A DNA stretch of 21,893 bases, from IMG/VR virus record IMGVR_UViG_3300021963_000737, positions 1-21,893 of that record, one strand, 5' to 3'. The translations under genes were made by a program, and so were the position numbers. This DNA comes from a virus. Positions 1-21,442 of this stretch are shown piece by piece. Below the pieces are notes generated by a model. It saw only the letters and a list, made by a program, of their open reading frames with translations. It was not told the origin of the DNA and made no database searches. Each line of letters opens with the position of its first letter. Within the stretch, counting starts at the first letter, position 1.

Positions 1-627
1 AATCAGTGGAGTTGGTTAACAGTTGTAGTTGATGCAGAAAATCAACAATCACATTTTTACTTAAATGGAACAGAAGTAGATTCTAAAGCAGGCTTTGGAA
101 GTAGTTCTCCTTGGAAGTATGAAGGAAAGCTTAAAACATATAGAAATAATAATATTTATTTAGGAACATCTACTACATTACCTGACGAAAGTACTCACAA
201 GTACTTTAAAGGGGATATTGCAAAAGTAGTAGCCTGGAATAGAGCACTAACTCCGGAAGAAGTTATTTCCGTACATAAAGAGTTGCCTAATCAAGGAATA
301 GTTCTTAACTTAGACTTTAATAATGAATACTCTGAACTTGTATACAACAATACTGAATATAGAACTGAAAATATCAGAGTACCAAACTCTATTCTACCTC
401 ATAGAGTTCCTGGGCGTTTTCGTTGTTTGCCTCATGTAGATGAAGGACTAGTTAACGGAGTTTGGGCTAAAGGTAAAACAACAGCTCAAAACGAAGAGAG
501 ATACGTATTACAGATGCAACAAGGAAAAGTTGATTATAAACAAGACGGAATTAATAATGTAAGTTATAAGTTCTTAGGAGAACAAAAATTAACTCCTTGG
601 GCTAAAATTTTAAATATAGAGTTATGA
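1..627 (+). CDS. LamG-domain protein, 3' part (probable tail adhesin or glycan-binding protein)
   Basis: The frame is open from the first base, so the true start lies upstream; 208 residues are visible. Residues about 1-93 look like the end of a LamG/concanavalin-A-like fold: WSWLTVVVDAENQQ, then a strand containing FYLNGTEVD, a NIYLGTST strand, and the typical closing DIAKVVAWNRALTPEEV helix. Such domains bind carbohydrates and are common in phage adhesins and surface proteins. The remaining ~115 residues (from about LNLDFNNEY, including PHRVPGRFRCLPHVDEG and a KQDGINNVSYKF strand) form a separate domain. From memory it resembles the C-terminal segment of some bacterial and phage galactosyltransferase-like proteins; this is low certainty. 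An internal TTG at 283 is not a credible start because the LamG fold is upstream of it. The stop overlaps the next gene by 4 bases (ATGA), implying coupled translation with the radical SAM gene. Confidence 0.8.
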   Translation, partial: NQWSWLTVVVDAENQQSHFYLNGTEVDSKAGFGSSSPWKYEGKLKTYRNNNIYLGTSTTLPDESTHKYFKGDIAKVVAWNRALTPEEVISVHKELPNQGIVLNLDFNNEYSELVYNNTEYRTENIRVPNSILPHRVPGRFRCLPHVDEGLVNGVWAKGKTTAQNEERYVLQMQQGKVDYKQDGINNVSYKFLGEQKLTPWAKILNIEL

Positions 628-2063
628 ACAAAGAGAAAAATGAGTTAACAGTCCTCAGAGAAGAGTTAAATAAAACTGGTTGTGGCTTCTGTGCAGCAAA
701 ATGGACACAAGTTACAATACACCTACAGATGGGAGAAACTCACTCTTGTCACCACCCTAGAACACATAAAATACCGGTAGCAGAGTTAGTAAGGAATCCT
801 TCTGCACTACATAATACAAAGTACAAGAAAGAACGTAGAAAAGAGATGCTAGAGGGTAAAAGACCTTCTGAGTGTGACTATTGTTGGAATGTAGAAGACA
901 ACTCAAAAGAATTCTCAGATAGAATTTATAAGTCAAATGAACCATGGTCTAAACCGCATTTAGAAGAGATTATAAACTCTGATTGGAGAAAAGACTACAA
1001 CCCTAGATACGTAGAAGTAGCTTTTTCAAATGTTTGTAATTTTAAATGCTCTTACTGTGGACCTTCTTTCTCATCTCAATGGGTACAAGAGTTAAAGAAA
1101 CACGGAGCATATCCAACATCTACAAAATTTAATGATTTAAAATGGGTTGAAGAGCAAGGTAGAATGCCATTTAATCATGGGGACCCTAACCCATACTTAG
1201 AGGCATTTTGGAAATGGTGGCCAGACTTATATAGGGATCTACATACATTCCGTATCACAGGAGGAGAGCCTTTATTAGCAAAAGATACATGGCAGGTATT
1301 AGATTATATTATTAATGAAGAAAAACCTAACAGAAACCTTAACTTAGGAATTAACTCTAACCTCGGAGTGCCTGATGAGTTGATAGATCAACTTATTGAA
1401 AAGATCCAAATTATTGAGAACGATAGTAAAGTTAAGGAACTGGTACTGTATACATCAATTGATACATGGGGTAACCATGCAGACTATATCCGTAATGGAA
1501 TGGACTATACAAGGTTTAAAAAGAATGTAGAAAAAATATTAGAAAACTGTAAAAGAGTTTCAGTTGTGTTTATGTCTACGTTTAATGCTTTATCTGTATT
1601 CAGGTACAAAGAGATGTTAGCATTTGCATACAATTTAAAAAAGCGCTTTAATAGCCCAGTACGTTACTGGAACCCGGTAGTGATGGTAGATTCATCTTAC
1701 CTAAGACATCCAGCACACCAAACTGTTCAATTACTTCCCCAGGAGTATAAAGAGTTGATCTTAGACGCTGCTAAATTCTGTGATGAATTACGCTACGTAA
1801 ATAAAGTAGAAAGCGAACAGTGGCAACCTTGGCATACAGGTTTTACAGATATCGAAACCGATAAAATTAAACGTATTGCAGACTGGATGTCAGCTCCTCA
1901 GGATCCTTTAATATTGGCTAGAAACAGAGAAGATTTTTATAAGTTCTTTACTGCACACGATAAACGAAGAGGAACTAATTTTGTAGAAACATTCCCACAA
2001 TTAGCTACATTTTTTAACGACTGTAAAGACGCAATGAATGAATTTAATCGCACACAGGGGTAA
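624..2063 (+). CDS. Twitch-type radical SAM enzyme
   Basis: This is a 479-residue protein with the CxxxCxxC radical SAM signature at C138-C142-C145 (CNFKCSYC), which holds the 4Fe-4S cluster that cleaves S-adenosylmethionine. The SAM-contacting motif ITGGEPLL lies at about 211-218. Two further cysteine groups occur before the core: CGFC at 20-23 with C42, and CDYC at 84-87. They could bind an auxiliary cluster or zinc. Proteins of this layout are usually named 'twitch domain-containing radical SAM protein' and occur in many marine phages; their substrate is not established. The start ATG overlaps the stop of the LamG gene, so the two are probably translated together. Substrate candidates, by context only, are a sugar intermediate of the downstream cassette or the upstream adhesin. 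The family call is firm and the reaction is unknown. Confidence 0.9.
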   Translation: MNKEKNELTVLREELNKTGCGFCAAKWTQVTIHLQMGETHSCHHPRTHKIPVAELVRNPSALHNTKYKKERRKEMLEGKRPSECDYCWNVEDNSKEFSDRIYKSNEPWSKPHLEEIINSDWRKDYNPRYVEVAFSNVCNFKCSYCGPSFSSQWVQELKKHGAYPTSTKFNDLKWVEEQGRMPFNHGDPNPYLEAFWKWWPDLYRDLHTFRITGGEPLLAKDTWQVLDYIINEEKPNRNLNLGINSNLGVPDELIDQLIEKIQIIENDSKVKELVLYTSIDTWGNHADYIRNGMDYTRFKKNVEKILENCKRVSVVFMSTFNALSVFRYKEMLAFAYNLKKRFNSPVRYWNPVVMVDSSYLRHPAHQTVQLLPQEYKELILDAAKFCDELRYVNKVESEQWQPWHTGFTDIETDKIKRIADWMSAPQDPLILARNREDFYKFFTAHDKRRGTNFVETFPQLATFFNDCKDAMNEFNRTQG

Positions 2064-2460
2064 TCTTAACGGACCGAACCCAGAACAGGAAAATAACCCA
2101 GAGTATTTAGCAATAGCTATAGAACAGGGGTATGACGTAGAGGTAGATGTTTGGTACAAAAACCATAAGCTATTCTTAGGTCATGATTTTCCCGTATACG
2201 AAACCTCTTTAGAATTCCTTAAAAAAGATTTTATTTGGGCTCATGCTAAAAACTTAGAAGCTCTTCACTATTTATTAGAGAATGACGTACATTGCTTCTG
2301 GCATGAAGAAGATCAACATACGTTAACAAGTAGAGGTTATATTTGGACTTATCCAAATATGGCTGTAACTTCTAAGAGTATAATTGTAGATTTACAACCG
2401 CAAGTAAAATTAAGACCGTGTTATGGAATTTGTTTCGACTGGACACCTATCCAAAAATAG
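2038..2460 (+). CDS. Short GDPD-like (PLC-like TIM barrel) phosphodiesterase
   Basis: This 140-residue protein begins IAHRGN, matching the HRG signature of glycerophosphodiester phosphodiesterases. It keeps the other expected acid and base positions: E18 in the PEQEN segment (equivalent to PENT), E35 and D37 in the strand DVEVDVW, and H49-D50 in LGHD. It is clearly shorter than ordinary GDPD enzymes (about 240 residues or more). A compact version of this sort is known to me from capsule and surface-glycan loci, where it probably acts on a phosphodiester or sugar phosphate; that assignment is inference. The start lies 26 bases inside the radical SAM gene, and the HRG motif sits only five residues from the start, as in full-length family members, so the start is credible. 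The end overlaps the next frame by 38 bases. Confidence 0.72.
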   Translation: MNLIAHRGNLNGPNPEQENNPEYLAIAIEQGYDVEVDVWYKNHKLFLGHDFPVYETSLEFLKKDFIWAHAKNLEALHYLLENDVHCFWHEEDQHTLTSRGYIWTYPNMAVTSKSIIVDLQPQVKLRPCYGICFDWTPIQK

Positions 2461-3067
2461 TAGAATAGCTATATGCTTATTTGGGAATATAATCGATTCT
2501 TCCAAACTAACTAAAGGGTTAAAACTACTTACATACAACATACCAGACATATCTATCGATTACTTTGCGAATACGTATCAACAGCTCGATGAAAGTTTTG
2601 TAGACAGTTTAAATATAAAAAACTACCAAACACAGCCTAACTTAAACACTTACGAACCTTCACTAGAAGACGCATTTAGTCTAGCTAGAGTTAGTATACT
2701 GAAGCAACGATTTGAAGCCGATTGTAAATTCAAATACGACGCAGTTATTGCTGTAAATACAAGCTCAGAAATAAGGTATACAGTTTTATCAACAAATCAA
2801 GAAATAACTGATCAAACAGTATATGGATTTGGATACTACATGGACACCTCCGTAATGCAATTTAGGTTAGATAACCTAGTATGGTTCTCAGATTCAAACA
2901 CCTTTGACACACTTTCTCGAATCTATTTTGACTTCGCTAAGAATCCACTACTATCTTTAAAAGAAGAAGTAGCTTGGCATTCTTACATAAAGAAACATAA
3001 CATCAACATAACACCTTTGGAATATAGAGCAGTTATTCTTGATGCTAAAAAAAGACCCTTAATCTAG
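2423..3067 (+). CDS. Divergent glycosyltransferase-like protein (HTW family, copy 1)
   Basis: This is a 214-residue protein of uncertain function. Its layout matches the two proteins at 3068-3886 and 7786-8439. It has an N-terminal hydrophobic strand (RIAICLFGN, about 14-22), a segment IDYFANTY where the others have the FVHTW motif, a central helix before YDAVIAV (about 105-111), and a C-terminal helical region. The pattern 'strand - xVHTW - YDxVxxxRxDL' recalls capsule-locus glycosyltransferase-like proteins. This copy has lost both the HTW and the acidic DL motif, so it may be inactive or have a different acceptor. The only ATG before the conserved core is at 2423, 38 bases inside the GDPD-like gene. 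The first 13 residues have no counterpart in the paralogues and may simply reflect this overlap. It directly abuts the next gene (TAGATG). Confidence 0.5.
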   Translation: MEFVSTGHLSKNSRIAICLFGNIIDSSKLTKGLKLLTYNIPDISIDYFANTYQQLDESFVDSLNIKNYQTQPNLNTYEPSLEDAFSLARVSILKQRFEADCKFKYDAVIAVNTSSEIRYTVLSTNQEITDQTVYGFGYYMDTSVMQFRLDNLVWFSDSNTFDTLSRIYFDFAKNPLLSLKEEVAWHSYIKKHNINITPLEYRAVILDAKKRPLI

Positions 3068-3886
3068 ATGCAAAATAAACCTAAAATAGCAGTATGTATC
3101 GCGGGTGAAATAAGAACCGGAATAGAAGACTTTAAAGTATTTTCTGAATTCTTTAAACATTACGACATAGATGTATTTGTACATACTTGGAATGTGGTAA
3201 CTTCCGACAATTTAAAATTTGGAGAGGACATCTGGAAGGGGAACGAAGGGTATGATACAAAAGGTATTCAACAGAAAATAGCAGAACTTTACAAACCTGT
3301 TAGGATGCTAGTAGAAGATCCTTTAGAGAAAACTGATACATTAGCTTTTGAATCAATGATGTACAGTATATACAGAGCTGATTTACTTAGACAGGATTAC
3401 GAATTAGAGACTAACAAAATATACGACATAGTAGTAAAGTACAGGTTTGATTTAATATTTGAAAAAGGAATTACATTCCCACCTTTTCAAGTAGAACCAA
3501 GAACGTTATACTATGTCAACCGTAACCAAGGATGTACTCCTCAAGACTGCGGCAGACATGGGTTAAGTGATTTATGGTTTTATGGAGATTCTAATACAAT
3601 GTCTACTGTGTGTAGTATGTATAATTTCTTTAGGTATAAATTAAAACCTTTGAGAAATCCGAATTACTTTACGGGAGTAGAGTTAAAAAGAGATATGAGC
3701 TTTGCAACTTTTTCACCTAGTCAACTTTATTACAACCAATGTATAAAATATAATATCAGACCTGTAGACATCTCAATGATGGATAATAACTATAATAGAC
3801 AGAGTCTACATAGAACTGCTGTAAAGCATTTAGACCCTTATGATAATTTTAAAGAAATAAACGAATACTACAACTCACATGTCTAA
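3068..3886 (+). CDS. Glycosyltransferase-like protein (HTW family, copy 2)
   Basis: This 272-residue protein has an N-terminal Rossmann-type strand KIAVCIAGEIRTG (6-18), then DIDVFVHTWN (33-42), a helix SMMYSIYRADLLRQDYE (about 96-112) and YDIVVKYRFDL (119-129). The last motif, an acidic residue after a basic stretch, has the position of a nucleotide-sugar-binding DxD-like element in GT-A enzymes. This arrangement is seen in putative glycosyltransferases of capsule and lipopolysaccharide loci. The donor and acceptor cannot be read from sequence. It is the best preserved of three related proteins in this operon and starts immediately after the stop of copy 1. Its last eight bases overlap the next gene. 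No signal peptide or membrane segment is visible, so it should be cytoplasmic. Confidence 0.6.
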   Translation: MQNKPKIAVCIAGEIRTGIEDFKVFSEFFKHYDIDVFVHTWNVVTSDNLKFGEDIWKGNEGYDTKGIQQKIAELYKPVRMLVEDPLEKTDTLAFESMMYSIYRADLLRQDYELETNKIYDIVVKYRFDLIFEKGITFPPFQVEPRTLYYVNRNQGCTPQDCGRHGLSDLWFYGDSNTMSTVCSMYNFFRYKLKPLRNPNYFTGVELKRDMSFATFSPSQLYYNQCIKYNIRPVDISMMDNNYNRQSLHRTAVKHLDPYDNFKEINEYYNSHV

Positions 3887-4826
3887 AGATCTAACACTTA
3901 TAACTTTTGGAGATAGCTGGACATGGGGAAGTGAACTTCGCAAACCAGGTCTGAAAAAATCAAAAGAAGATTGGGATACTTCTAATGATGAGTATCGTCT
4001 AAAAAACGTCTGGCCTACCTACTTATCAGAACAGTTAGGCTTTACTAAACATATTAATAGATCATTCCCAGGAGCATCTAACGATATGATAGTAAGACAT
4101 TTAGTAAACTATATACTCCAAGAGTATTTAAAACCTGGTAAGCCAACTGATGACTTATTTTTAACAATAGGATTAACCTCTCCAGATAGAGTAGATCTTT
4201 ATTTTAAGAATGAACAAATATTAGGAGACCAAGGTTGGATGACACTTTGGCCGTATATGGATATAGATTACGGAGATAAGCTTCGTAATAACTTTGCTAA
4301 GACATACTCTTTATATTTTGCAAACCCAGAAGAGTTTGTATACCGCTATATAAATCAAATACACTACCTGCAGACTTTTTTAACTGCTAATAATATTAAG
4401 CATTTAATATTTCAATCCTTTTATCAAACATTTGGGCATGTTCATATAACTGAATGGGAGGATAAACCACATGCATTTACGTACAAGTCTATTATGAACC
4501 AATCGTACTGGGAGTTAATTCACCCGGTAACCTTTATGAATAAGAATGTACCTGCTCATAGTTTTCATGCACATGTAAAACTTAAATCTATGCTAACAGG
4601 AGAAGAAGGTTTTAAGGTACAACATCCTTCTGAGATAGGACATAAATGGTGGGCAGATCATATGAAAGAATATATAGTAAAAAATAAACTTTTAAAAAGT
4701 ATTCCAAAACTACATACCTACGACTTTTCAGATCCAGTAAAGACACTGCCGGTTACATTGAAAAACACAGGGCCTGTAGAACAAGATATAGAAACAAAAA
4801 AACCAGTTTTTAGAACATTAATATGA
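3879..4826 (+). CDS. SGNH/GDSL-like hydrolase, copy A
   Basis: This 315-residue protein opens with LITFGDSWTWG, the block I GDS motif with the presumed nucleophile S13. Block II is seen as SFPGASND (G65, N68). Block III carries GLTSPDR instead of the usual GxND, a replacement that I associate with phage-type members. The C-terminal catalytic block is HPSEIGH (H249 to H255). SGNH enzymes remove acyl groups from sugars, lipids or glycans, and in this glycan cassette a deacetylase or deacylase role is the natural guess. There is no signal peptide, so it acts in the cytoplasm or on the virion. It overlaps the preceding gene by 8 bases and the following paralogue by 4 (ATGA). Confidence 0.72.
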   Translation: MSKDLTLITFGDSWTWGSELRKPGLKKSKEDWDTSNDEYRLKNVWPTYLSEQLGFTKHINRSFPGASNDMIVRHLVNYILQEYLKPGKPTDDLFLTIGLTSPDRVDLYFKNEQILGDQGWMTLWPYMDIDYGDKLRNNFAKTYSLYFANPEEFVYRYINQIHYLQTFLTANNIKHLIFQSFYQTFGHVHITEWEDKPHAFTYKSIMNQSYWELIHPVTFMNKNVPAHSFHAHVKLKSMLTGEEGFKVQHPSEIGHKWWADHMKEYIVKNKLLKSIPKLHTYDFSDPVKTLPVTLKNTGPVEQDIETKKPVFRTLI

Positions 4827-5641
4827 GAACACTTTATTCACTCGGAGATAGCTTTAGCGTAGGAGTAGGTTTAGATATTAGATCTCTACCTCATAAAACT
4901 TACTCTGGAATTTTAGCAAGTAACCATGAGTCTACTCTAAAACTATTAGGAAGAGCCGGATGTGATATGTTTACAATATACCTTCAGGTTCGAAAATTAA
5001 TTAAACTCAGTAAAGGTAGAGACGAACTTGCAATAATAAGCCTTACTTGGCCTGATAGGTTTTCTTTTGCAACCGAAGAAGTACACTACCTGGACGTTGA
5101 TCTAAAAAATGTAGATTACCTCTCTTACGTACCATATAGAGATGCTTTAGCATGTAACCCTGATATTATACCAGCTTTCGATTTTTCAAACAATCCTAAA
5201 ATATTTAGCAATACATTAGTAGATATCGACGGATTACTAAACGGAAAGATGTATAATAAAGACGGTATGCATGTTTTAAGTAGAGAGCATAGAAAAGCTT
5301 TAGAGTACTATATTACGTATCTACACAACCACCACATAAAACGAGAACAAGATACAGGGTTGGCATTGTATATGCATACGCTTTTAAAGCAAGCTAATAT
5401 CCCTCACGTATTTCTAGACCCGATAGGGTATTTCCTTCACGAACCTCATAATAAACTGACAACACTTATAGACAAGAAGCACTTTATTATACACGACTGG
5501 TACAAGTTCGCAGAAAAATACCCGGACGTACAAGGAACAAGCCATGTTAATGAAGAAGGTCATCAAGTAGTTTCACAAATTATACAAGAACATTTAGATA
5601 AACATAATATAATTGAAGAATGGAAAACGCCCCTTATATAG
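4823..5641 (+). CDS. SGNH/GDSL-like hydrolase, copy B
   Basis: This 272-residue protein starts TLYSLGDSFSVG with the presumed nucleophile S10. Block III is SLTWPDR, parallel to GLTSPDR of the upstream copy, again without the canonical GxND asparagine. The C-terminal block is HVNEEGH (H241 to H247), with exactly the spacing found in copy A. The two genes are therefore adjacent, diverged paralogues of one fold rather than two unrelated hydrolases. The pair could act as a heteromer or on two acyl positions of one glycan; this is inference. The start is fixed by the ATGA overlap with copy A, and the 3' end overlaps the nucleotidylyltransferase start by 22 bases. Confidence 0.68.
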   Translation: MRTLYSLGDSFSVGVGLDIRSLPHKTYSGILASNHESTLKLLGRAGCDMFTIYLQVRKLIKLSKGRDELAIISLTWPDRFSFATEEVHYLDVDLKNVDYLSYVPYRDALACNPDIIPAFDFSNNPKIFSNTLVDIDGLLNGKMYNKDGMHVLSREHRKALEYYITYLHNHHIKREQDTGLALYMHTLLKQANIPHVFLDPIGYFLHEPHNKLTTLIDKKHFIIHDWYKFAEKYPDVQGTSHVNEEGHQVVSQIIQEHLDKHNIIEEWKTPLI

Positions 5642-6348
5642 TTTTTCCTATGCTAGGAGAAGGTTCTAGGTTTGTAACTGCAGGTTACACCACACCTAAG
5701 TATTTATTAGAATACAAAGGTAAGACGATGTTAGAACACGCGGTAGATACGTTAGGAGTTAATGGAGAACTTATTTTTATAATAAGAGGAGATCATGATC
5801 AAGCGTATAAAGACCAGATTGATAGACTAACTAAAAAGTATGATGCTAATCTTCTAATAGTTAACCGAAAGACGCAAGGAGCAGCGGAAACAGTATCACT
5901 TATCCGTCCGTACATCCAAGATCTTTCCCGTCCATTAATAACAGTTAATGCTGATCAGTATATGCACTGGAATGGAAAAAAGTTTGAAGAATTACTTGCT
6001 TCTGATCCGGAAAGTTCGTATATTGTTACACATACCGACTCTTCCCCTAAATGTAGTTATGTGAGGTTAGAAGGAGATGAAATTGTAGAAGTACGAGAAA
6101 AGATCGTAATAAGTAATACTGCTACAGTCGGAATATACCATTGGGCATCTACTAAAGATTTTTTAGAAGATGTAGACCAGATGATGGAAGAAGGTGTTAA
6201 AGATAACAATGAATATTATATAGCACCGGTTTATAACTACACTATTAAGAAAGGAAAGAAAGTCAAGATGTATCATATACCTCCAGGACAATTCTACCCA
6301 GTAGGAACACCAGAAGATTTTGAATATTTTAAAAACTTAGAACTATAA
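5620..6348 (+). CDS. Sugar-phosphate (or related) nucleotidylyltransferase
   Basis: This 242-residue protein has the N-terminal nucleotide-binding signature of NTP transferases: GEGSRFVTAGYTTPKYLL, about residues 13-30, with the conserved R17 and K27. It is followed by KTQGAAET (84-91) and the metal-binding VNADQ strand with D112. NNEYYIAPVYN and a terminal FYPVGTPEDFEYF segment are typical of short, core-only sugar-1-phosphate nucleotidylyltransferases without a C-terminal beta-helix. It should activate a sugar phosphate, or a similar phosphorylated compound, as an NDP or CDP derivative; the nucleotide and sugar cannot be told. It starts 22 bases within the SGNH gene and is joined to the cupin gene by a 1-base TAATG overlap, a strong hint that the two products act on the same intermediate. 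Confidence 0.88.
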   Translation: MENAPYIVFPMLGEGSRFVTAGYTTPKYLLEYKGKTMLEHAVDTLGVNGELIFIIRGDHDQAYKDQIDRLTKKYDANLLIVNRKTQGAAETVSLIRPYIQDLSRPLITVNADQYMHWNGKKFEELLASDPESSYIVTHTDSSPKCSYVRLEGDEIVEVREKIVISNTATVGIYHWASTKDFLEDVDQMMEEGVKDNNEYYIAPVYNYTIKKGKKVKMYHIPPGQFYPVGTPEDFEYFKNLEL

Positions 6349-6674
6349 TGAAAGCAGGTAGAATAGAAGATTTTAAGAAAGGATGGTTTATTGGAAACTT
6401 TGAACCAAGTCTACTCAAAGCAGATTTTGAAGTAGCAATTCAACATTACAAGAAAGGAGAAGTTCATAACGATCACTTTCATAAAAAAACAACCGAGTAC
6501 AATGTAGTACTGGACGGTGTTATTAAGATTAACGAACAAGAGTTTGTAGAGGGAGATATCTTTATTATAAAACCTTATGTAGTTAGCCAGGCATCTTACT
6601 TAACGGACGTAAGGTTGTTAGTAGTAAAGACAGAAAGTGACCCAAAAGATAAATACGAATTTGAATTAATATGA
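6348..6674 (+). CDS. Single-domain cupin, partner of the nucleotidylyltransferase/RLP pair
   Basis: This 108-residue protein contains a complete cupin motif 1, G37-x5-H43-x-H45-x4-E50-x6-G57, which normally binds a divalent metal. Motif 2 is recognisable as G69...P76 but its metal-binding histidine position is Q81, so metal coordination should be altered. Small cupins act as isomerases, epimerases, lyases or sensors. In Rhodospirillum rubrum a cupin works with a RubisCO-like protein in methylthioadenosine metabolism, a precedent for the neighbour seen here. It is coupled on both sides: TAATG with the nucleotidylyltransferase and ATGA with the RubisCO-like gene. The fold assignment is strong and the reaction is unknown. 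Confidence 0.85.
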   Translation: MKAGRIEDFKKGWFIGNFEPSLLKADFEVAIQHYKKGEVHNDHFHKKTTEYNVVLDGVIKINEQEFVEGDIFIIKPYVVSQASYLTDVRLLVVKTESDPKDKYEFELI

Positions 6675-7789
6675 ATATAGTAATAGATAAAATACCAGCA
6701 GACCATTTTTTAGTAGAGTACTATCTTGAATCAAGAACTACCTTATACGAAGCAGCATATGCTTTAGCAGTTGGTCAAAGCATAGGAAACCCTTCTGTAC
6801 GTAATGTATTTGAAACTCCTGAATTAATTGCAAACCATTGTGCTAAGATAGTAGACATAAAAGAACGTTTAGATTCTAAAAATAAAGGAACAGTAGCTAT
6901 TGCATTCCCTGCAGCAAATATAAACTGGGAAGAGGATGGTATCTCACATTTAGTATGTAACATAATGGGAGGGCAGACTGATATTGATATTATAGAGAAA
7001 TGTCACATTACTGATATTGAATTACAGAACCTATACCCAATCTTAAAACCTAAATTTGGAATAACAGGTATTAGAGAAAAGACAGGTCAGTACGAAAAGC
7101 CGCTACTAGGATGTATACTTAAACCTAAAATTGGTTTAAAACCTACAGAGATTGTCTCTATTGTAAAAGATATGATTGAAGGAGGAGCAGATTTTATTAA
7201 AGAAGATGAAATTATGTCTAACCCAATTTTCTGTAGTTATGAAGATAGATTACCTCTTATTAAAGAGATATTACCTGACAACGTAATATACCTAGCAACA
7301 TGTAATTCAGATCCACACAAGTTAGTAGACAGAGCTAAAAAAGTACACGAGTATGGATCAAACGGTATTCATATCAACCTTTGGAGTGGGTTAGGAGCTT
7401 ACGCTTCAGTTAGACAACTAGACTTACCTCTTGTAATGCATTATCAGAAAAGTGGAGATAAGGTGATTACCCATATCAATAACCCTTATCGAATTGACTG
7501 GAGAGTTTTATGTAAGTTAGCTGCAATTAGCGGCATTGATACTATACATGCCGGAATGTGGGGCGGTTACTTAAGCGACGAACCTACATATCTACAAGAG
7601 GTTATGGATATATTAAGAGAGAGAAATGTACTACCGGCTTTAAGTTGTGGTATGAATGCTCAATTAATTCCAAAAGTAACTGAAAAGTTTGGATATGACT
7701 ACTTAGCTAATGTAGGAGGAGCAGTACACTCACATAAAGACGGTATCAAACCAGCTGTACAAGATTTAAGAAAAGCTATAGATAAATGA
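6671..7789 (+). CDS. RubisCO-like protein (form IV type, non-carboxylating)
   Basis: This 372-residue protein has the whole RubisCO large-subunit layout. The N-terminal alpha/beta domain includes HFLVEYYLES and EAAYALAVGQSIGN. The barrel then follows with KPKIGL (K151, K153, matching K175/K177 of plant RubisCO) and GGADFIKEDE (K177, D179, E180, matching carbamylated K201 and metal ligands D203/E204). N97 matches N123, H293 matches H327, S325 matches S379, and G349-G350 fall in the phosphate-binding GGG loop. The loop-6 catalytic K334 is replaced by Y300 (GMWGGYLSDE). H294 and R295 appear to be Q259 and K260, and E60 aligns to G35. It should therefore form an enolate on a sugar-phosphate-like substrate but not fix CO2. 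Known RLPs act as enolases, isomerases, decarboxylases or transcarboxylases on MTA- or apionate-derived compounds; which applies here is open. It is coupled by ATGA overlaps to the cupin upstream and the GT-like gene downstream. Confidence 0.92.
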   Translation: MNIVIDKIPADHFLVEYYLESRTTLYEAAYALAVGQSIGNPSVRNVFETPELIANHCAKIVDIKERLDSKNKGTVAIAFPAANINWEEDGISHLVCNIMGGQTDIDIIEKCHITDIELQNLYPILKPKFGITGIREKTGQYEKPLLGCILKPKIGLKPTEIVSIVKDMIEGGADFIKEDEIMSNPIFCSYEDRLPLIKEILPDNVIYLATCNSDPHKLVDRAKKVHEYGSNGIHINLWSGLGAYASVRQLDLPLVMHYQKSGDKVITHINNPYRIDWRVLCKLAAISGIDTIHAGMWGGYLSDEPTYLQEVMDILRERNVLPALSCGMNAQLIPKVTEKFGYDYLANVGGAVHSHKDGIKPAVQDLRKAIDK

Positions 7790-8439
7790 TCGCAGTAATT
7801 GTATCGGGTAAATTAAAAGGACTTTCAGATAACTTTCCGAAGTTTATAGAATCCTTACATGAACCGGTACAATGTTTTGTGCACACCTGGGATACAGAAG
7901 AAAATAGTAGATGGTTAAATAAACTTAACAGGTACGGTGATATAGTCGATTTAGAGTATGTAACAGAACCGCCGATAGACAATAAGAAGTTTGCGATACT
8001 TCACTCTACGTATCAAGCAGTAAGTTTAATACCTGATTTAAACAAGTATAGCACTATAATAAAGTTTAAACCTGATCTAGATACCGATACTATTATATAT
8101 GATAAGAATATTACAAAATATTTTCAAGAAGCTACTTTACACACCTATCCGCTTCTTAAAGGAAAAACAAAAGAAGATTTTATTTACGGTAGGGTATTGT
8201 ATAAAACACTAGACGAAAGAATGTTTAGCACATTCCCAAAAGCAATAGAGACGTTATTTAAAAGATCATACGGGGATTATATTACAGATCTACAAATGAT
8301 AGATAATTTTTTAATAAAAAAATACGGACTCTACTACGAAGGGAGCATCCTCTGGACTAATTATATTAGAGAAAGAGGTTTAGATATTATACAAGACCTA
8401 ACACTCCAATTACCAAATTGCAAAGTTATAAACAATTAA
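7786..8439 (+). CDS. Glycosyltransferase-like protein (HTW family, copy 3)
   Basis: This 217-residue protein is related in layout to the products of 3068-3886 and 2423-3067. It begins MIAVIVSGKLKG, has QCFVHTWD at 29-36 and IIKFKPDLD at 91-99, parallel to the HTW and YRFDL motifs of copy 2. A C-terminal helical part includes FLIKKYGLYYEGSILWTNYI. The acidic PDLD element sits where a GT-A type enzyme binds its nucleotide-sugar donor. Function as a glycosyltransferase is inferred from this pattern and from the neighbouring sugar nucleotidylyltransferase. The ATGA overlap with the RubisCO-like gene makes it the last gene of the coupled cassette; a 4-base gap follows before the next start. Confidence 0.55.
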   Translation: MIAVIVSGKLKGLSDNFPKFIESLHEPVQCFVHTWDTEENSRWLNKLNRYGDIVDLEYVTEPPIDNKKFAILHSTYQAVSLIPDLNKYSTIIKFKPDLDTDTIIYDKNITKYFQEATLHTYPLLKGKTKEDFIYGRVLYKTLDERMFSTFPKAIETLFKRSYGDYITDLQMIDNFLIKKYGLYYEGSILWTNYIRERGLDIIQDLTLQLPNCKVINN

Positions 8440-11104: not shown

Positions 11105-11131
11105 TAATCTGCCTTATATTAATAAAAGAAG

Positions 11132-11157
11132 CCCGGAAAGAAATTTCCGGGTTTTTT
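11132..11157 (+). terminator. Strong intrinsic terminator after the tail tube gene
   Basis: A perfect 8-base-pair stem CCCGGAAA/TTTCCGGG encloses a GAAA tetraloop and is followed at once by TTTTTT. A-rich sequence before the stem can extend pairing into the T-run. It lies 28 bases after the tube stop codon. It is the only clear rho-independent terminator that I find in the window. Confidence 0.93.
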
Positions 11158-11183
11158 GTTGGTTCAAAAAGTTATTTTTCATA

Positions 11184-11191
11184 TATTTATA
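11184..11191 (+). promoter_or_regulatory. Candidate late promoter element restarting transcription before the chaperone gene
   Basis: TATTTATA, 28 bases before the ATG at 11220 and 26 bases after the terminator T-run. Its position fits re-initiation for the chaperone/tape-measure unit. Nearby GTTATTTTTC and GTTATTTAAA flank it. On the minus strand it reads TATAAATA, the T4 late consensus, but all genes here are on the plus strand. Confidence 0.48.
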
Positions 11192-11219: not shown

Positions 11220-11960
11220 ATGGATCAACCACAAAAATTCCCTACAGAGATTGTAGACCTACCTTCTAAAGGGTTACTTTACCCAGAAGAACATCCATTA
11301 GCATCAGGTACTATTGAAATGAAGTATATGACAGCTAAGGAAGAGGATATCTTAACCAACCAAAGCTTTATTGAGAGAGGAGTAGTAATCGACAAGTTAT
11401 TACAGTCTCTAATTGTAACTAAGTTTAACTATGATGATCTTTTAGTTGGAGATAAGAATGCTATATTAGTAGCAGCACGTATCTTAGGTTACGGTAAAGA
11501 TTACGAATTTAACTACCAAGGACAAAAAGAAAATGTAGATTTATCTTTAATTGAAAATAAGGTTTTTGATGAGAGCTTATTCAAAGATAGAAAGAATGAA
11601 TTTACTTACGAATTACCTGCTACAGGAAACGTAGTTACTTTCAAACTTTTAACTCATGGAGATGAACAAAAAATCCAACAAGAGATAAAAGGTCTTAAGA
11701 AAATTAACAAAGACGCTTCACCAGACTTATCAACAAGGTTAAAACACATAATCATTGGTGTTAATGGAGCTACTGATTCTAAAAGTATTAGAGATTTCGT
11801 AGATAATCATTTCTTAGCAAGAGACTCTCGTGCATTTAGAAAACATATCTCAGAATTTCAGCCAGACGTAGATTTGAAATTCTATCCAGAAAATGGACCA
11901 GAAGGAGGGGTTGACATTCCAATCGGGGTTAACTTTCTTTGGCCTGACGCCAACGTATAG
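11220..11960 (+). CDS. T4 gp26-like tail/baseplate assembly chaperone
   Basis: This 246-residue protein starts with PTEIVDLPSKGLLYPEEHPL and contains MKYMTAKEEDILTNQSFIERG (about residues 35-56), then DKLLQSLI and DLLVGDKNAILVAARILGYG. These features are typical of the T4 baseplate-hub assembly/gp26 family (Pfam T4_baseplate-like). It ends VDIPIGVNFLWPDANV. The place between tube and tape measure is where tailed phages keep their tail assembly chaperone (lambda G and G-T). Its last 83 bases overlap an open +1 register that continues as the next gene. Together they look like a frameshift pair. The gene is preceded by a TATTTATA element and has the non-Shine-Dalgarno leader AAATCAAATTTATG. Confidence 0.8.
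   Translation: MDQPQKFPTEIVDLPSKGLLYPEEHPLASGTIEMKYMTAKEEDILTNQSFIERGVVIDKLLQSLIVTKFNYDDLLVGDKNAILVAARILGYGKDYEFNYQGQKENVDLSLIENKVFDESLFKDRKNEFTYELPATGNVVTFKLLTHGDEQKIQQEIKGLKKINKDASPDLSTRLKHIIIGVNGATDSKSIRDFVDNHFLARDSRAFRKHISEFQPDVDLKFYPENGPEGGVDIPIGVNFLWPDANV
11878..11960 (+). other. Candidate programmed frameshift window (+1 or -2) in the tail chaperone pair
   Basis: The +1 register is open from 11878, just after an in-frame TGA at 11875, and the zero frame ends with TAG at 11958. Any switch must therefore happen inside these 83 bases. Candidate slip sites are GGA GGG GTT at 11904-11912, where a glycyl-tRNA on GGG can re-pair exactly on GGG one base on, and CTT TGG near the 3' end, which shares the CUU-U slip of the prfB frameshift. 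A late switch near CCT GAC GCC AAC GTA TAG would best keep the conserved FLWPD end joined to YRVAIFNQ. Which site is used, if any, cannot be decided here. Confidence 0.5.
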
Positions 11961-12198
11961 AGTTGCTATTTTCAACCAGATTCATGAGATAGTATTTCAC
12001 GGAAAAGGAGGATATGATCACGATACAGTATATGCAATGCCTATATGGTTACGTAACTTTACCTTCCAAAAGATGAATGAATTCTACGAAAAAGAACAGG
12101 AAGAAATAAATAAATCTAAAAGTAAGACACCTTCTAAAGCAGCTCCGAAAGGACCTGCAGTAAGAAAACCGTCTTATAGTGCTAAGGCTCGCCCATAA
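11893..12198 (+). CDS. Downstream part of tail chaperone (G-T-like extension) or separate small tail protein
   Basis: Read from its own ATG it would be 101 residues, but the first ~22 lie over the end of the preceding gene and look unlike a natural N-terminus. The convincing protein starts near YRVAIFNQIHEIVFHGKGGY and continues DTVYAMPIWLRNFTFQKMNEFYEKEQEE. A basic, Ser/Pro/Ala-rich tail (about 75-101) follows. Sequences with 'MPIWLR' after an 'IHEIVFHGxGG' helix follow the FWP end of gp26-type proteins in other marine phages as I remember them. The ATG at 11893 has no ribosome-binding site. I favour production as a fusion with the upstream protein by +1 (or -2) frameshifting, giving about 325 residues. 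An independent start or an assembly indel remain possible. Confidence 0.6.
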   Translation: MDQKEGLTFQSGLTFFGLTPTYRVAIFNQIHEIVFHGKGGYDHDTVYAMPIWLRNFTFQKMNEFYEKEQEEINKSKSKTPSKAAPKGPAVRKPSYSAKARP

Positions 12199-12240: not shown

Positions 12241-15200
12241 ATGGCCGGAAACGATAATAGACAGTTAGAAGAAGCAAAAAGACTCTTACAGGAGATAAAT
12301 ACCTTAAGAGCTAGGCTTAATCAACAACCGTTAACAATGACGGATGCTGATGCAGTAGCAAATGTGCAAAGCCTTCGTAACGAACTAAGAGGAGTACAAA
12401 ATGCTTTTCAGGATGTAGATGATTCTGCAACAAGTCTCTATGATCAGGTTAGAGCAATTTCTGGTGAATTTAAGAACCAGCCAGGCGCTTTGCAGAAGAT
12501 TAGATCATCTATGAAGAAGATTACCTCTATTGCAGAAGATTTAAAACTACAAGAACAGGGTATTAAAGATCTTTCTACAAAGCAACTAGACGATTTAGCT
12601 CAAAGATTAAAAGAAAATAAAAAAATATTAGATGACGAATCAACACGTTTATTAAACGGAGAGGATTTATCAGATATTGCACAAAGAGAGGTTCAGGCTC
12701 TTCAAGATTTAATACAAGAACAAGGTGGGTTAACTAACATGACTAGAGACCAGGTAGATGCTGCTCTAGAGTTAGTTAACGTAATGGATAATCTTTCCAC
12801 AGAACAAAAAGCCGCTTTAGCTAACTATGTAGACCAAGGTAATGCATTAGGTAATATAGAGGATAAAATTAGTGCTATAAAAGAACAGCAGAAAGAAGTC
12901 AATAACTTGATGGGTGTTGGTGGTGCTGTAGTAGATGGATTGGACGGTCTAATGGGTAAACTCGGTATGAGCTCCAGTAGATTCAAAGATGCAGTATCAG
13001 AGGCTAAAGATAAAATGAAAGCAACTGCAGAAGCAATTCAATCAGGTGCTCAAAAAGGAAATAAGTTAACAGTACTAATGTCTGGCTTAGGGCCTTTAGC
13101 AAAAGGCTTTGGAGCTGCTTTATTAGATCCGTTAACTATTATCATGAAGATAGTAGATGCGTTCTTCAAATTAGATAAAGCAAGCACAGAAGTACAGCGA
13201 TTAACCGGACAAAACTCAGATTTAGTTGCAGGAGCAAATATGAGATACGCTACTTCGGTAGATTATCTTGAAACCGTAGCAGAGCTTACAAAGCAGACTG
13301 GTATGAATGCTCAAAATATATTTACACCAGATGTTATTGCAGGAGCCGCTGAATTAAAAAATACAATGGGACTTGCTGCTGACGAAGCAGGAGGTCTTGC
13401 AATGATAGCTCAGACTACAGGTGGGAATATAGATAAGACAGTCGATAGTATTGTTGCTGAAACTAGTGCTTTTAACAAAGCAAATAGATCAGCTGTATCT
13501 CAAGGACAGGTACTTAGAGACGTAGCTAAAACTTCAGATGGAATTAAAGCTTCTTTAGGAGGTAACCCTAAATTAATAGCTGCCGCTGCTACACAGGCTC
13601 GTAGATTAGGAATGGAACTTAGCCAGGTAGACGGTATTGCTAGTTCTTTATTGGACTTTGAAGATTCTATTTCAAAAGAAATGGAAGCTGAACTACTTAC
13701 AGGTAAGGACTTAAACTTAAATAAAGCTAGAGAGTTAGCTTTAAATAATGACTTAGCAGGCGTAGGTAACGAATTATTTAAGAATGCTGCTGATATCAAT
13801 GAATTCGGTAAAATGAACCGAATCCAACAAGAGTCTTATGCGGCTGCATTAGGTATGACTAGAGACCAGCTAGGTAAAATAGCTTATCAGAAGGCAATTG
13901 AATCCGGAATGACAGAAGAACAAGCCGCCGCAGCAGCGAATGTAAATGCAGAGGATATGAAGAGAGCGGAAGTACAAGAGAGAATTCAAAAATCAGTAGA
14001 TAAGTTAGCACAAGCATTTGCACCAATATTAAGTATAATAGGAGATATTGTTAACATACTTGCACCAATAGTACAGGTAGTGGGAGGAATAGTAGGATGG
14101 GTTGTAAAACTTGCATCTGAATTTAGTGTAGTAAAGTATATCCTTTATGGAATCGTCGCTATAATAGCAGCTCAAAAAATCGCAGGATTCTTTGGTACTT
14201 TAGTTGGAGGCGCTTCATCTTTCTTATCTTCGATAAAGAATATAGGTTCTTCATTCAGTGGAATGATGGATACAATGAAAGGCTGGGGACAGGGTATCAA
14301 AGATGCTTTTTCAGCCGGTAAATCAGGAGCAGGTAAGATAACAGAAGCTGCTAAAACGGCAACCGATGCCGCTGGACCAGTAGCAGATACTGCTTCTAAA
14401 GTTGCAGGCCCGGTAGCGGATAAAGCAACAGAAGCAGCTAAGTCTGCACAAGGTGTATCAAAAACAGCCGGTACAGGTATAAAAGAATTCTTAACAAACT
14501 TAGGAGAAGGTTTACGTAACTTAGGTAAGAAATTTGGAGATGTATTAAAAGGTATATTAGCTTTAGGATTAGCCGCAGTAGCAATTGTGGGACCTTTAGC
14601 TGGAGCAATGTTAATAATTAAAGACGTACCTGCCGCTGCAATGATTGCATTTGCTGCTTCAATTGGAGTGTTAGGTTACTCTTTAGCACAAATAGGAAAG
14701 AATGCAGGTGATGTAGGTAAAGGAGGTCTTGCTTTAATAGTAGCAGGAGCAGGTATTGCCGCAGCAGCATTTGGATTTTCACTATTAAAAGGAATTGACC
14801 CAGTAGGAATGTTAGCATTCTCAGGAGCAGTAGCTATATTAGGATTATCCTTAATTGTAATAGGAAAGAACGCAACAGATGTAATAAAAGGAGCAGCTGC
14901 AATGTTAATTGTAGGAGCTGCTATAGTCGTAGCATCATACGGACTTTCAATGTTATCAGGAATAGATCCAACATCTATGATGGTATTTGCCGGTTCGTTA
15001 ATTGCTCTTGGTTTAGCCGCTGCATTATTAGGAACAATAGCTAGTCAGGTAATGATGGGAGCAGTTGCTTTACTTGTATTAGGAGCAGCTCTAGTACCAG
15101 CCGCATATGCCTTTTCATTATTAGCAGGAGTTGATACAAGTACAATAGTAGCCTTTTCAGTAGCTTTACCTTTACTTGCATTAGCAGCAGCAGGATTAGG

Positions 15201-18236: not shown

Positions 18237-18539
18237 ATGGACAGATATAGACAAATAGAAGAGTATAGAACAGAAGAAGGAGTGCGTTATAGACGTAACC
18301 CTATCTACCCGGATATACCTGAACATGAAGAAGATCTATACGTAATTACCACAGGAGGCGACCGTTATGATACGCTAGCTAATCAATTTTATAATGATCC
18401 GACTTTATGGTGGATTATAGCATCAGCAAATAACTATAACAAAGATAGCCTCGCAATAACACCCGGTGTACAATTAAGAATACCGGCAGATAGAGACGGA
18501 ACTATACTTGAGTATTATAGAATAAATAATATAAGATAA
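18237..18539 (+). CDS. LysM-like baseplate protein (T4 gp53 type)
   Basis: This is a 100-residue protein. Residues 34-83 form a LysM-like unit: LYVITTGGDRYDTLANQFYN, then PTLWWIIASANNYNKDSLAI and closing PGVQLRIP. Short proteins of this form occur beside the hub genes of contractile tails, as gp53-type wedge proteins or as XkdP-like connectors. There the fold joins protein subunits rather than binding peptidoglycan. It is much shorter than T4 gp53 (196 residues) and carries little beyond the LysM core. It lies five bases after the preceding gene and overlaps the hub gene by one base (TAATG), pointing to stoichiometric co-translation with the hub. Confidence 0.78.
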   Translation: MDRYRQIEEYRTEEGVRYRRNPIYPDIPEHEEDLYVITTGGDRYDTLANQFYNDPTLWWIIASANNYNKDSLAITPGVQLRIPADRDGTILEYYRINNIR

Positions 18540-21442
18540 TGGGAGGTTTTTTAGGAGAAGGGCTTACACCTGGGGTTATAACACAGATCACAGCAAGGAA
18601 AGCACTACTGACCAAAGCAGATAGAAACAACGTACACCATGCGTTACTTAATTCTAACGTACCTTGGGTAGCGCTATATTCCGGTGTGAAGCGTGGAGAT
18701 TCTTTTGCTAAATCTGGAATAACATTTAAACTAGAAGGTGGCGCCGCTTTTCAAGGAGATATAGGACAGAATGGAGCTCCTGCTGGATATTGGATCAGTA
18801 CCGATACAGGTAAATCAACAGGTATCAGACCAAGAGCAGGTATAACAGATGTTAAGGTAAAATCAAAAGGAACTTTTGGTACTCTACGAGATGTTGAAAT
18901 AAACATTAAAGCATGGACCACAGAAGACTTTGAAACTCTCTATGACCTTTATATGAGACCAGGCTTCCACTTCTTATTAGAATGGGGGCATTCGGCATAC
19001 ACTACTTCTGGGAACGATATTGCTCAAGTTAGACCAACTGCTTCAGGTACTTTTCTACAAAGCTCAGTTAGCTATAAAACAGTAATGCAAGAGGTAGTTA
19101 GCCAGAGACAAAAATCAGGCTATAACTACGACGGAATACTAGGTGTATGTAAAAACTTTTCTTGGTCTCTAAACGAACAAGGAGGTTATGATATTACTAT
19201 TAACTTAATTTCAAAAGGAGAAGTTATTGAATCGATAGGTGTTGCTTTTGATCCAGGACCTAACGTAAATGCAGAAGACCTTAAAAAAGGTAACAAAGAT
19301 AAATCGGAAAGAAAAAGCCCTATACATTTCCTATTAAAGAGAATTGAACTTTCAGAAGCAGAAGGAGCAGTGAAGTTGGATGGATTAGGTACCGGGCAAT
19401 TTAAAGAAGCTACTTCATTATTAGATCCGGCAAAATTCGATGTATTCCAAAAAACAGGATTTGACGTAGAAGAACCGGGTAGTATGTTTGATAAATCTAA
19501 AACACTTACTTGGATCTCCTTACGAACAATTTGCGATATTATTAATGCATTTGCGGTAACTAGAGAAGGTCCAGATAAAGGGCAAGTAGCTTTTGAGATT
19601 AACACAGAATTAGGAAATAAGTACGTAACTCATCCAAGTCAATTTAGTATAGACCCTATTGTATGTGTAACTTCCACACCTAATAACATGTCTATGAATG
19701 GCAAAGAGTTAGGAAAAGTTACATTAACAGGAACTGATGAACGTATAGCAAAATTAGGACCGCTTCAAAATGATGTCTTAGCAATATGTGTTACAAACTT
19801 ATACTTGTACGAAGTATTAGATCCTTTATTTGATAGAGGAGATGCAAAAGAAAACCCCGTTAGTATTTTAGATACCTTTAAGGCTATCCTAGGAGGTGTT
19901 AACGAAGCTATGGGCGGTATAAATGAATTAGAATTAGCCTACGACGAAGAGACGAATAAATGGGCTATTATAGATAGAAAGTGGCAAGAAGATCCTGCAA
20001 AACTCCCTAAAATAACTTTAACAGGATTAGGTTCAAACATTAAAACTTTAAGAACAGAATCTAAGATTACTAATAAGCTAGCTTCTATGATTTCAATAGG
20101 AGCTACAGCTGGTAGATCCGGTACAAAAGAGAATGTGGATGAGCTGTTAGCTTGGAATAGAGGAGATAGTGATAGGATTGCTCCTGTAAAATCACAGACT
20201 AAGAAAGGAGATAAAACAGCTCCAACTCCTCTTCCTGATCCTCAACAAGCTTTTAATGAGTGGGCAGAACGTGTTGATGAGGCTTTCCAAGCTGTTAACG
20301 GAGAAGGTTTGCTAACCGATCAAAACTACGATAAAGACTCTTTTCAGGCATTAAAATCAGGCCATCAGTTATACCAAGCAGAAAAACTTGCTGAATTTAA
20401 CGGAGGTTCAGGTAAACCACCTAAAGGGCTAATCCCAGTAGAGTTAAGTTTTACTATGCAAGGTATTGCCGGGTTTAAGATTGCACAAGCTTTTAAGATA
20501 GAGACAGGACTAATCCCAGCTGTATACACAGGGGATAATATGGGTTACTTAATTACCAAATGTGACCATACCATAAACGCTAACGAATGGACTACCGAAG
20601 TAGGAGCATTAATGTACAACATTAAACCCTACCCTGGTTATAAATCAGGAATTAATACATCTGCTACAGGAAGCCCTAACACAGTAGTAAAAACAACCAC
20701 AGATACAGGAACCGCTAGTGGCGGAGCAGATGGACCAGTAACCGGAGCAGAGCAATCACAACAAGCTTTAGGTAAATCAGTAAGTTACGATAGAGTAAAA
20801 GCTGCTATTCAGAAAAAAGGATATAAGTGGTATGGTAACGAACTTGAGTTAAATATTATTGGAGTTAGAAATATACAAGGACAGAAAGATTCTGGACACG
20901 GAAAACTTCATCCGATTACAAATAAGTTCAACGATATCTTAATTGTAGCTTGGATAGAGAATGGAGTTAGAACAGCTGAATCATATCCTGCAACCACAGT
21001 CCCTGGAGCTGGCTATACCCTGAAGAGTAATAAGTACTTTAGTAATATGAATAAACTAGGTACTGGAGCTAAGCAAGAAGGTCAATGGCTTGCTCACTAC
21101 TTTGCAAGCTCTCATAAAGGACATCCTGCAATGCGTGATAGGACTGCCATTGGTGTACACCGTGATAATAACTACACAGATAGTTGGATAGACTTAGCAA
21201 TTAACCCTAAAGGTAAAGCACCTGGTTTATTTAATGACCAAGCAGGTATGTTAATTCACAACTCAGGGGATTATGGAGATCCAAAAACAAAGTTAGTTAA
21301 CAACTGGTCAGCTGGATGTCAGGTTCTTGCAAATATGAAGCAAACAAACAGATTAGTTGCATTAACAGAAAAAAGTAGTAAGAAGACAGGTAATAAGTTC
21401 TTCACATATACATTAATTAACAGTAACGATATTCAACTATAA
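18539..21442 (+). CDS. Baseplate hub protein with C-terminal YkuD-like cell-wall domain
   Basis: This is a 967-residue protein. The N-terminal two thirds look like a tail hub: GITFKLEGGAAFQGDIG and GIRPRAGITDVKVKSKGTFG are followed by RDVEINIKAWTTEDFETLYD, FHFLLEWGHS, and later VTSTPNNMSMNGKELGKVTL and FTMQGIAGFKIAQAFKIETG. A Gly/Thr-rich linker (about 700-750) leads to a separate domain of ~210 residues. That domain contains MLIHNSG with H907 and NNWSAGCQVL with C927. Sixteen residues separate H907 from S924, which fits the L,D-transpeptidase (YkuD) pattern H-x(14-17)-[S/T]-H-G-C, except that the second histidine is alanine. I infer a peptidoglycan-active or peptidoglycan-binding domain at the tail tip that opens the cell wall. 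No lysozyme or other lytic enzyme is seen elsewhere in the window. Hub assignment is by pattern and position. Confidence 0.75.
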   Translation: MGGFLGEGLTPGVITQITARKALLTKADRNNVHHALLNSNVPWVALYSGVKRGDSFAKSGITFKLEGGAAFQGDIGQNGAPAGYWISTDTGKSTGIRPRAGITDVKVKSKGTFGTLRDVEINIKAWTTEDFETLYDLYMRPGFHFLLEWGHSAYTTSGNDIAQVRPTASGTFLQSSVSYKTVMQEVVSQRQKSGYNYDGILGVCKNFSWSLNEQGGYDITINLISKGEVIESIGVAFDPGPNVNAEDLKKGNKDKSERKSPIHFLLKRIELSEAEGAVKLDGLGTGQFKEATSLLDPAKFDVFQKTGFDVEEPGSMFDKSKTLTWISLRTICDIINAFAVTREGPDKGQVAFEINTELGNKYVTHPSQFSIDPIVCVTSTPNNMSMNGKELGKVTLTGTDERIAKLGPLQNDVLAICVTNLYLYEVLDPLFDRGDAKENPVSILDTFKAILGGVNEAMGGINELELAYDEETNKWAIIDRKWQEDPAKLPKITLTGLGSNIKTLRTESKITNKLASMISIGATAGRSGTKENVDELLAWNRGDSDRIAPVKSQTKKGDKTAPTPLPDPQQAFNEWAERVDEAFQAVNGEGLLTDQNYDKDSFQALKSGHQLYQAEKLAEFNGGSGKPPKGLIPVELSFTMQGIAGFKIAQAFKIETGLIPAVYTGDNMGYLITKCDHTINANEWTTEVGALMYNIKPYPGYKSGINTSATGSPNTVVKTTTDTGTASGGADGPVTGAEQSQQALGKSVSYDRVKAAIQKKGYKWYGNELELNIIGVRNIQGQKDSGHGKLHPITNKFNDILIVAWIENGVRTAESYPATTVPGAGYTLKSNKYFSNMNKLGTGAKQEGQWLAHYFASSHKGHPAMRDRTAIGVHRDNNYTDSWIDLAINPKGKAPGLFNDQAGMLIHNSGDYGDPKTKLVNNWSAGCQVLANMKQTNRLVALTEKSSKKTGNKFFTYTLINSNDIQL

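Follow-up and report, generated by a model that had tools for sequence, protein, structure and literature searches.

A pair of overlapping reading frames in the window, as the whole stretch of 21,893 nt analysed here is called, very probably encodes a tail assembly chaperone in two forms. The two parts, ORF A and the downstream frame B, would be joined by a programmed +1 frameshift at the tetranucleotide TTT_C, yielding a long form of 325 residues. A programmed frameshift in a tail chaperone pair had already been claimed in the initial annotation of this DNA. The claim stands after comparison with relatives, and a +1 shift is its best-supported reading.

Organization of the Locus

ORF A (11220..11960; like all features of this locus, on the plus strand) runs from ATG to TAG and encodes a protein of 246 aa, the putative short tail assembly chaperone (TAC-N) of the T4 gp26/gp51 family. 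Its reading frame is bounded by stops at 11190 and at 11958 (TAG, 11958..11960), the latter 24 nt downstream of the proposed slip codon. In the +1 frame relative to ORF A, a TGA at 11875 is followed by the next stop, TAA, at 12196, leaving this frame open over 11878-12198. In phage immuto of Flavobacterium sp. LMO8, the end of ORF A has the sequence TTT CTT TGG CCT GAC, as in the window. The two frames overlap at 11878-11957, which amounts to 80 nt, or to 83 if counted from stop to stop. After the slip, frame B would be read from 11938 to the end of its TAA stop (11938..12198), adding a C-terminal extension (TAC-C) of 86 aa.

The upstream neighbour of ORF A is a tail tube gene (phrog_4542, E 1.8e-22); downstream, a 1202-aa tape-measure-like ORF starts at 12241. 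The same order of tube, chaperone and tape measure genes is found in immuto. ORF A itself matches phrog_150, "baseplate hub", with an E-value of 6.7e-8. All this agrees with the initial annotation, which had called ORF A gp26-like, had placed the pair between tube and tape measure, and had described a +1 register with an open window of 83 bases between TGA 11875 and TAG 11958; its coordinates are correct. A terminator-like hairpin with a T run (cccggaaagaaatttccgggtttttt) is located at 11131-11158, between the tube and chaperone genes.

Elsewhere in the window, this contractile-tailed phage carries a gene for a RuBisCO large-subunit-like protein upstream of its sheath gene (6671-7789, plus strand; PF00016, E 5e-35; PF02788, E 2.7e-5). 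A metabolic or glycan-type cassette lies around it (624-8439, plus strand), with radical SAM (624-2063), DUF6071 (3879-4826), nucleotidyltransferase (5620-6348) and cupin-like (6348-6674) members and several ORFs without a family. Further along, a small baseplate wedge-like protein (18237-18539, plus strand; phrog_7145, E 1.3e-12) is followed by a 967-aa ORF (18539-21442, plus strand), whose C-terminus matches phrog_3000, with a weaker match to an endolysin family.

Conservation of the Register among Relatives

Relatives with both parts were collected by two scans of viral contigs and by tblastn of a phage collection. Close to the window, B is in the +1 register to A in all 118 distinct loci (duplicates removed), the overlap between the two frames ranging from 20 to 194 nt. 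A distant seed, the Microcystis phage Mel-JY01 (49% identity between its A and that of the window), brought 80 further loci: two of these contigs end too early, and the 78 scorable loci all have the +1 register. In total, the register is +1 in 196 of the 196 relatives in which B was locatable, more than expected by chance, even if the loci are related and the counts not independent; the statistics were made on representative sets at 75-85% identity. These matches include two cultured phages, Immutovirus and Mel-JY01, which were sequenced independently. The huge phage LR756508 also has the +1 register, with a clear homologue of B (E 3e-25); its A, used as a seed against the viral contigs, found no relative.

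The comparison of homologues called for by the initial annotation hence gives a conserved +1 register. Relatives with both parts in one continuous frame, named there as evidence against a frameshift, were not encountered among the 118 close and 78 distant loci. Downstream of A's stop, frame B evolves like a coding sequence, with substitution rates of 0.126, 0.094 and 0.395 at codon positions 1, 2 and 3 (570 pairs). B alone matched no family in the library searches. Phage RM378 has an open +1 frame downstream of TTT TTT TGG, without significant similarity to B.

The Proposed Slip Site

All pairs share a short block near the end of A, of the general form YTT-YTT/CTA-T..-CCT, which begins 15-27 nt ahead of A's stop, counted from the first base of codon 1. 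In the window, this block is TTT CTT TGG CCT (11934..11945), read as F-L-W-P in A and as (F)-F-G-L in B. Among 176 distinct pairs, 173 have TTT as codon 1, the other three having CTT; codon 2 is more variable (TTT in 102, CTT in 71, CTA in three), codon 3 is TGG in 172, TAC in three and TTC in one, and codon 4 is CCT in every pair. The tetranucleotide at codon 1 is TTT_Y in 173 pairs and CTT_T in the other three.

The silent sites of A help to place the putative slip. A has 102 conserved degenerate codons, and only two of them, F239 (TTT) and P242 (CCT), are without synonymous change: among 108 representatives, P242 is CCT in all 108, and F239 is TTT in all 105 that bear a Phe. The commonest codon has a mean share of 0.62 across those 102 codons, and the other conserved Phe codons of A use one codon in 61-83% of cases. 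The third codon positions of A are the second codon positions of B. CCT is frozen because the Leu of B (CTN) needs its T, which places the shift upstream of CCT; likewise, the T of codon 2 is needed for the Phe or Tyr of B, which implies that reading of B has already begun at codon 2. The third T of codon 1 is required by neither protein if the shift occurs at codon 1, and it is required for the re-pairing of tRNA-Phe with UUY.

Judged from these alignments, a +1 shift at TTT_C (11934..11937), with the P-site tRNA-Phe moving from UUU to UUC, is the most likely slip site, and +1 is likelier than -2 as the direction. As in sites of the UUU_C type, UUU is followed by a base that allows the re-pairing of tRNA-Phe. 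Short as this +1 site is, a natural freeze of silent sites points to its slip codon. Another TTTC stands in frame at 11856.

It is rather unlikely, though worth weighing, that the same programmed frameshift takes place on another codon or in the other direction: +1 on YTT_T (codon 2, a prfB-like CUU_U), +1 on CCT, or -2 on codon 2 to TTY. CTT_TGG or a similar sequence, resembling the CUU_UGA of prfB, is present in 71 of the 176 pairs, the run TTT TTT T permits several re-pairings, and phage Mu uses a -2 shift (PMC5009743). In three loci (L051, L053 and L155), however, codon 2 is CTA next to an unchanged TTT at codon 1, and a tRNA slipping on this CTA would mispair, whether by +1 or by -2. A +1 slip on codon 2 moreover leaves the third T of codon 1 unexplained, and with a slip on CCT, neither of the T-rich codons would be accounted for, the Leu of B at CTN being conserved. 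The chaperone of the Streptococcus phage GXN1 (L157:3167-3229) ends in TTC TTT CGT CCC CGA and has a long +1 frame. Because of its TTC TTT_C and of the three loci with CTT as codon 1, the slip codon may not be at the same place everywhere.

With the slip at TTT_C, A and B would each be one half of a tail assembly chaperone. The majority of ribosomes would read A and terminate at 11958, producing the short form of 246 residues. In a minority, with UUU (11934-11936) and tRNA-Phe in the P site, the tRNA would re-pair one base forward with UUC (11935-11937), and reading would go on with UUU GGC CUG ACG. The resulting long form would combine residues 1-239 of A with 86 residues of B. For the window sequence, the junction peptide predicted by +1 at TTT is FYPENGPEGGVDIPIGVNFFGLTPTYR (...DIPIGVNFFGLTPTYR; VNFFGLTPTYR). 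The alternatives predict other junctions: ...VNFLFGLTPTYR for -2 at CTT, ...VNFLGLTPTYR for +1 at CTT and ...VNFLWPTPTYR for +1 at CCT.

Entry into Frame B

Start codons were searched for in the 176 distinct A/B pairs, over a range that begins where frame B opens and extends ten codons beyond the site. No ATG, GTG or TTG occurs in this range of frame B in 56 pairs, nor in 24 of 63 representatives (A less than 75% identical), and ATG is missing near the site in 117 of the 176 pairs. Furthermore, in 22 of the 63 representatives, a frame-B stop ends at most 8 nt upstream of codon 1 of the block. Together, these stops and the missing starts indicate that ribosomes come to B from A, no earlier than the start of the block. 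The initial annotation had seen no credible start for the second frame, and this is borne out: the ATG at 11893 is not conserved.

That B is a small gene in its own right, translationally coupled to A, is very improbable. Its start would have to be the ATG at 11893, the TTG at 11911 after AAGGAGGGG, or a non-standard codon. The ATG and an SD-like tract (11902-11910) are indeed present, and Mel-JY01 and immuto have been annotated with a separate small CDS. The TTG of the window, however, lies just 2 nt away from the SD-like tract and lacks conservation, and the pairs devoid of any ATG, GTG or TTG argue that B is not a separate gene, as do the frame-B stops just before the block. This reading would also leave the frozen TTT unexplained.

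RNA polymerase slippage on the T run, leading to a mixed mRNA pool, could be considered for the many relatives with seven T in a row (TTTTTTT); it is highly unlikely, as TTTCTTT or TTTCTAT takes its place in the window and in 73 other pairs, where no T run exceeds three. An assembly error, indel or pseudogene, conceivable in a single contig but favoured by no tool result, is excluded for all practical purposes by the same register in 196 relatives, independently sequenced cultured phages included, none of which has A and B in one frame.

Sequences around the Proposed Slip Site

An SD-like purine tract, AAGGAGGGG (11902..11910, with AGGAGG at 11903-11908), is found 25 nt 5' of the slip codon, and no start codon is present at the usual spacing from it. 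Such a tract, 25-30 nt upstream of the slip codon, is conserved among the relatives to a degree beyond that due to codon usage. A match to SD of at least 5 nt occurs there in 65% of the 63 representatives, compared to 44% (sd 5.4, maximum 60%) in a null of 1000 draws with redrawn synonymous codons; for a 6-mer match, the values are 43% and 15% (maximum 29). The Glu codons in the region of the tract are GAG in 65%, versus 22% elsewhere.

The arrangement differs from the prfB type of +1 site (CUU before a stop, SD 3 nt upstream): the A-site codon is not a stop, and the SD-like tract is 25 nt away. In F. johnsoniae, SD is rarely used for initiation, yet the prfB site has AGGAGG (PMC8710568); elongating ribosomes of such hosts may hence read SD-like tracts. 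RNA structure was rejected as a stimulator: the fold z-score around the site, about -0.6, is the same as in controls, and RNAalifold gave no conserved base pair there.

A bacterial class of +1 signal could tentatively be proposed, although this generalization is more doubtful than the frameshift itself. Its members would need neither a stop codon nor RNA structure nor an SD next to the site: tRNA-Phe would slip at UUU_Y, aided by the SD-like tract 25-30 nt further upstream. They would occur in phages whose hosts, like Flavobacterium, make little use of SD for initiation, and the direction of the slip would have changed between lineages of one chaperone family.

Relation to the T4 gp26/gp51 Family

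T4 gp26 (208 aa) and gp51 (249 aa) are both members of phrog_150 and PF12322, gp51 being composed of a gp26-like part and a C-terminal extension. Protein A of the window does not reach PF12322; its relatives in LIS04 and RM378 do. The profile of B aligns over 50 columns with an alignment of the gp51 extension (rows T4, P-SSM2, S-PM2, phiM12, HTVC008M and Melnitz), with an hhalign probability of 87% and a P-value of 3.7e-6; against the single T4 gp51 sequence, it is not significant. A B-like part in the +1 register is also present in the Firmicute phages LIS04, SP-15 and GXN1; its alignment to B has a P-value of 8.6e-9. On the basis of these profile comparisons, A is the counterpart of what T4 gp26 and gp51 have in common, and B that of the C-terminal extension.

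Kyanoviridae and phiM12 encode the extension in the -1 register, at a T run. In a tree built from 28 A proteins, the -1 rows cluster with T4 and the +1 rows stand apart; the Xanthomonas phage XacN1 (-1) is loosely placed with the +1 rows. The direction of the slip follows this tree, with three changes versus 7.6 when shuffled; its branches are long, its deep order is uncertain, and the root serves only for drawing.

The AlphaFold model of A has a pLDDT of 90.8; the viral proteins that it matches are baseplate hub proteins of the T4 type, that of SP-15 among them. Among solved structures, neither Foldseek (best E 1.6) nor VIA-align gave a strong match for A. VIA-align ranked the HK97 tail assembly chaperone 2OB9 first among solved chains (Z 4.0, 96 residues, rmsd 5.1), a weak match in line with the proposed chaperone role. 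The model of B is helical (pLDDT 80.9), and its structure comparison gave no strong match.

Comparison with Known Systems

The locus has three of the features by which a frameshifted chaperone is recognized: the gene position, an overlapping C-terminal part in another register without a conserved start, and a slippery sequence near the end of the ORF. Frameshifting between G and T is widely conserved except in T4, according to the review of Atkins (PMC5009743), and T4 was thereby listed as the exception to the rule of frameshifted tail chaperones in long-tailed phages. As for lambda gpG/gpGT, a short form and a low-level frameshifted long form would be tied to tape measure and tube (PMC5009743); the lambda shift, in contrast, is -1 and uses a different slippery site. 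By analogy, the short form would coat the tape measure, and the B domain would recruit tube subunits.

A +1 register between the parts, as in the window, is also known from Mu (by a -2 shift), HSTV-2 (very likely +1) (PMC5009743) and the chaperone of the Bacillus phage Moonbeam (+1; PMC4299906), but these are not described in the two papers as being of the T4 gp26/gp51 type, nor as having a conserved UUU_Y signal. The proposed move of the P-site tRNA-Phe from UUU to UUC is that of influenza A PA-X, whose UUU_C was proven as a +1 site by mass spectrometry (PMC3498833). PA-X is made by eukaryotic ribosomes with the rare codon CGU in the A site, whereas here the ribosomes are bacterial and the A-site codon is CUU or UUU.

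Vladimirov et al. 2022 (Virology) reportedly treats the tail chaperones of T4-like phages, T4 itself having separate genes. The general idea has thus been known since 2022; the present comparison adds the +1 direction, the TTT_Y site, the conserved SD-like tract 25-30 nt upstream and the breadth across many environmental phages. T4 genes 26 and 51 are reportedly named in that earlier work, and frameshifting is said to be kept in several other T4-like groups. For immuto and Mel-JY01, the present reading would correct the annotation, the B part having been deposited as a separate hypothetical protein.

A close comparison is with P-SSM2, S-PM2, HTVC008M and Melnitz (Kyanoviridae) and the Sinorhizobium phage phiM12, which have a homologous A with a gp51-type extension and a T-rich junction near A's stop. 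Their B is in the -1 register at the T run, whereas here it is +1 at TTT_Y. In T4, the two forms come from two separate genes; here, they would come from one gene and a +1 shift. The locus, the cyanophages and T4 would hence represent three routes to the same two proteins: a +1 shift, a -1 shift and two genes.
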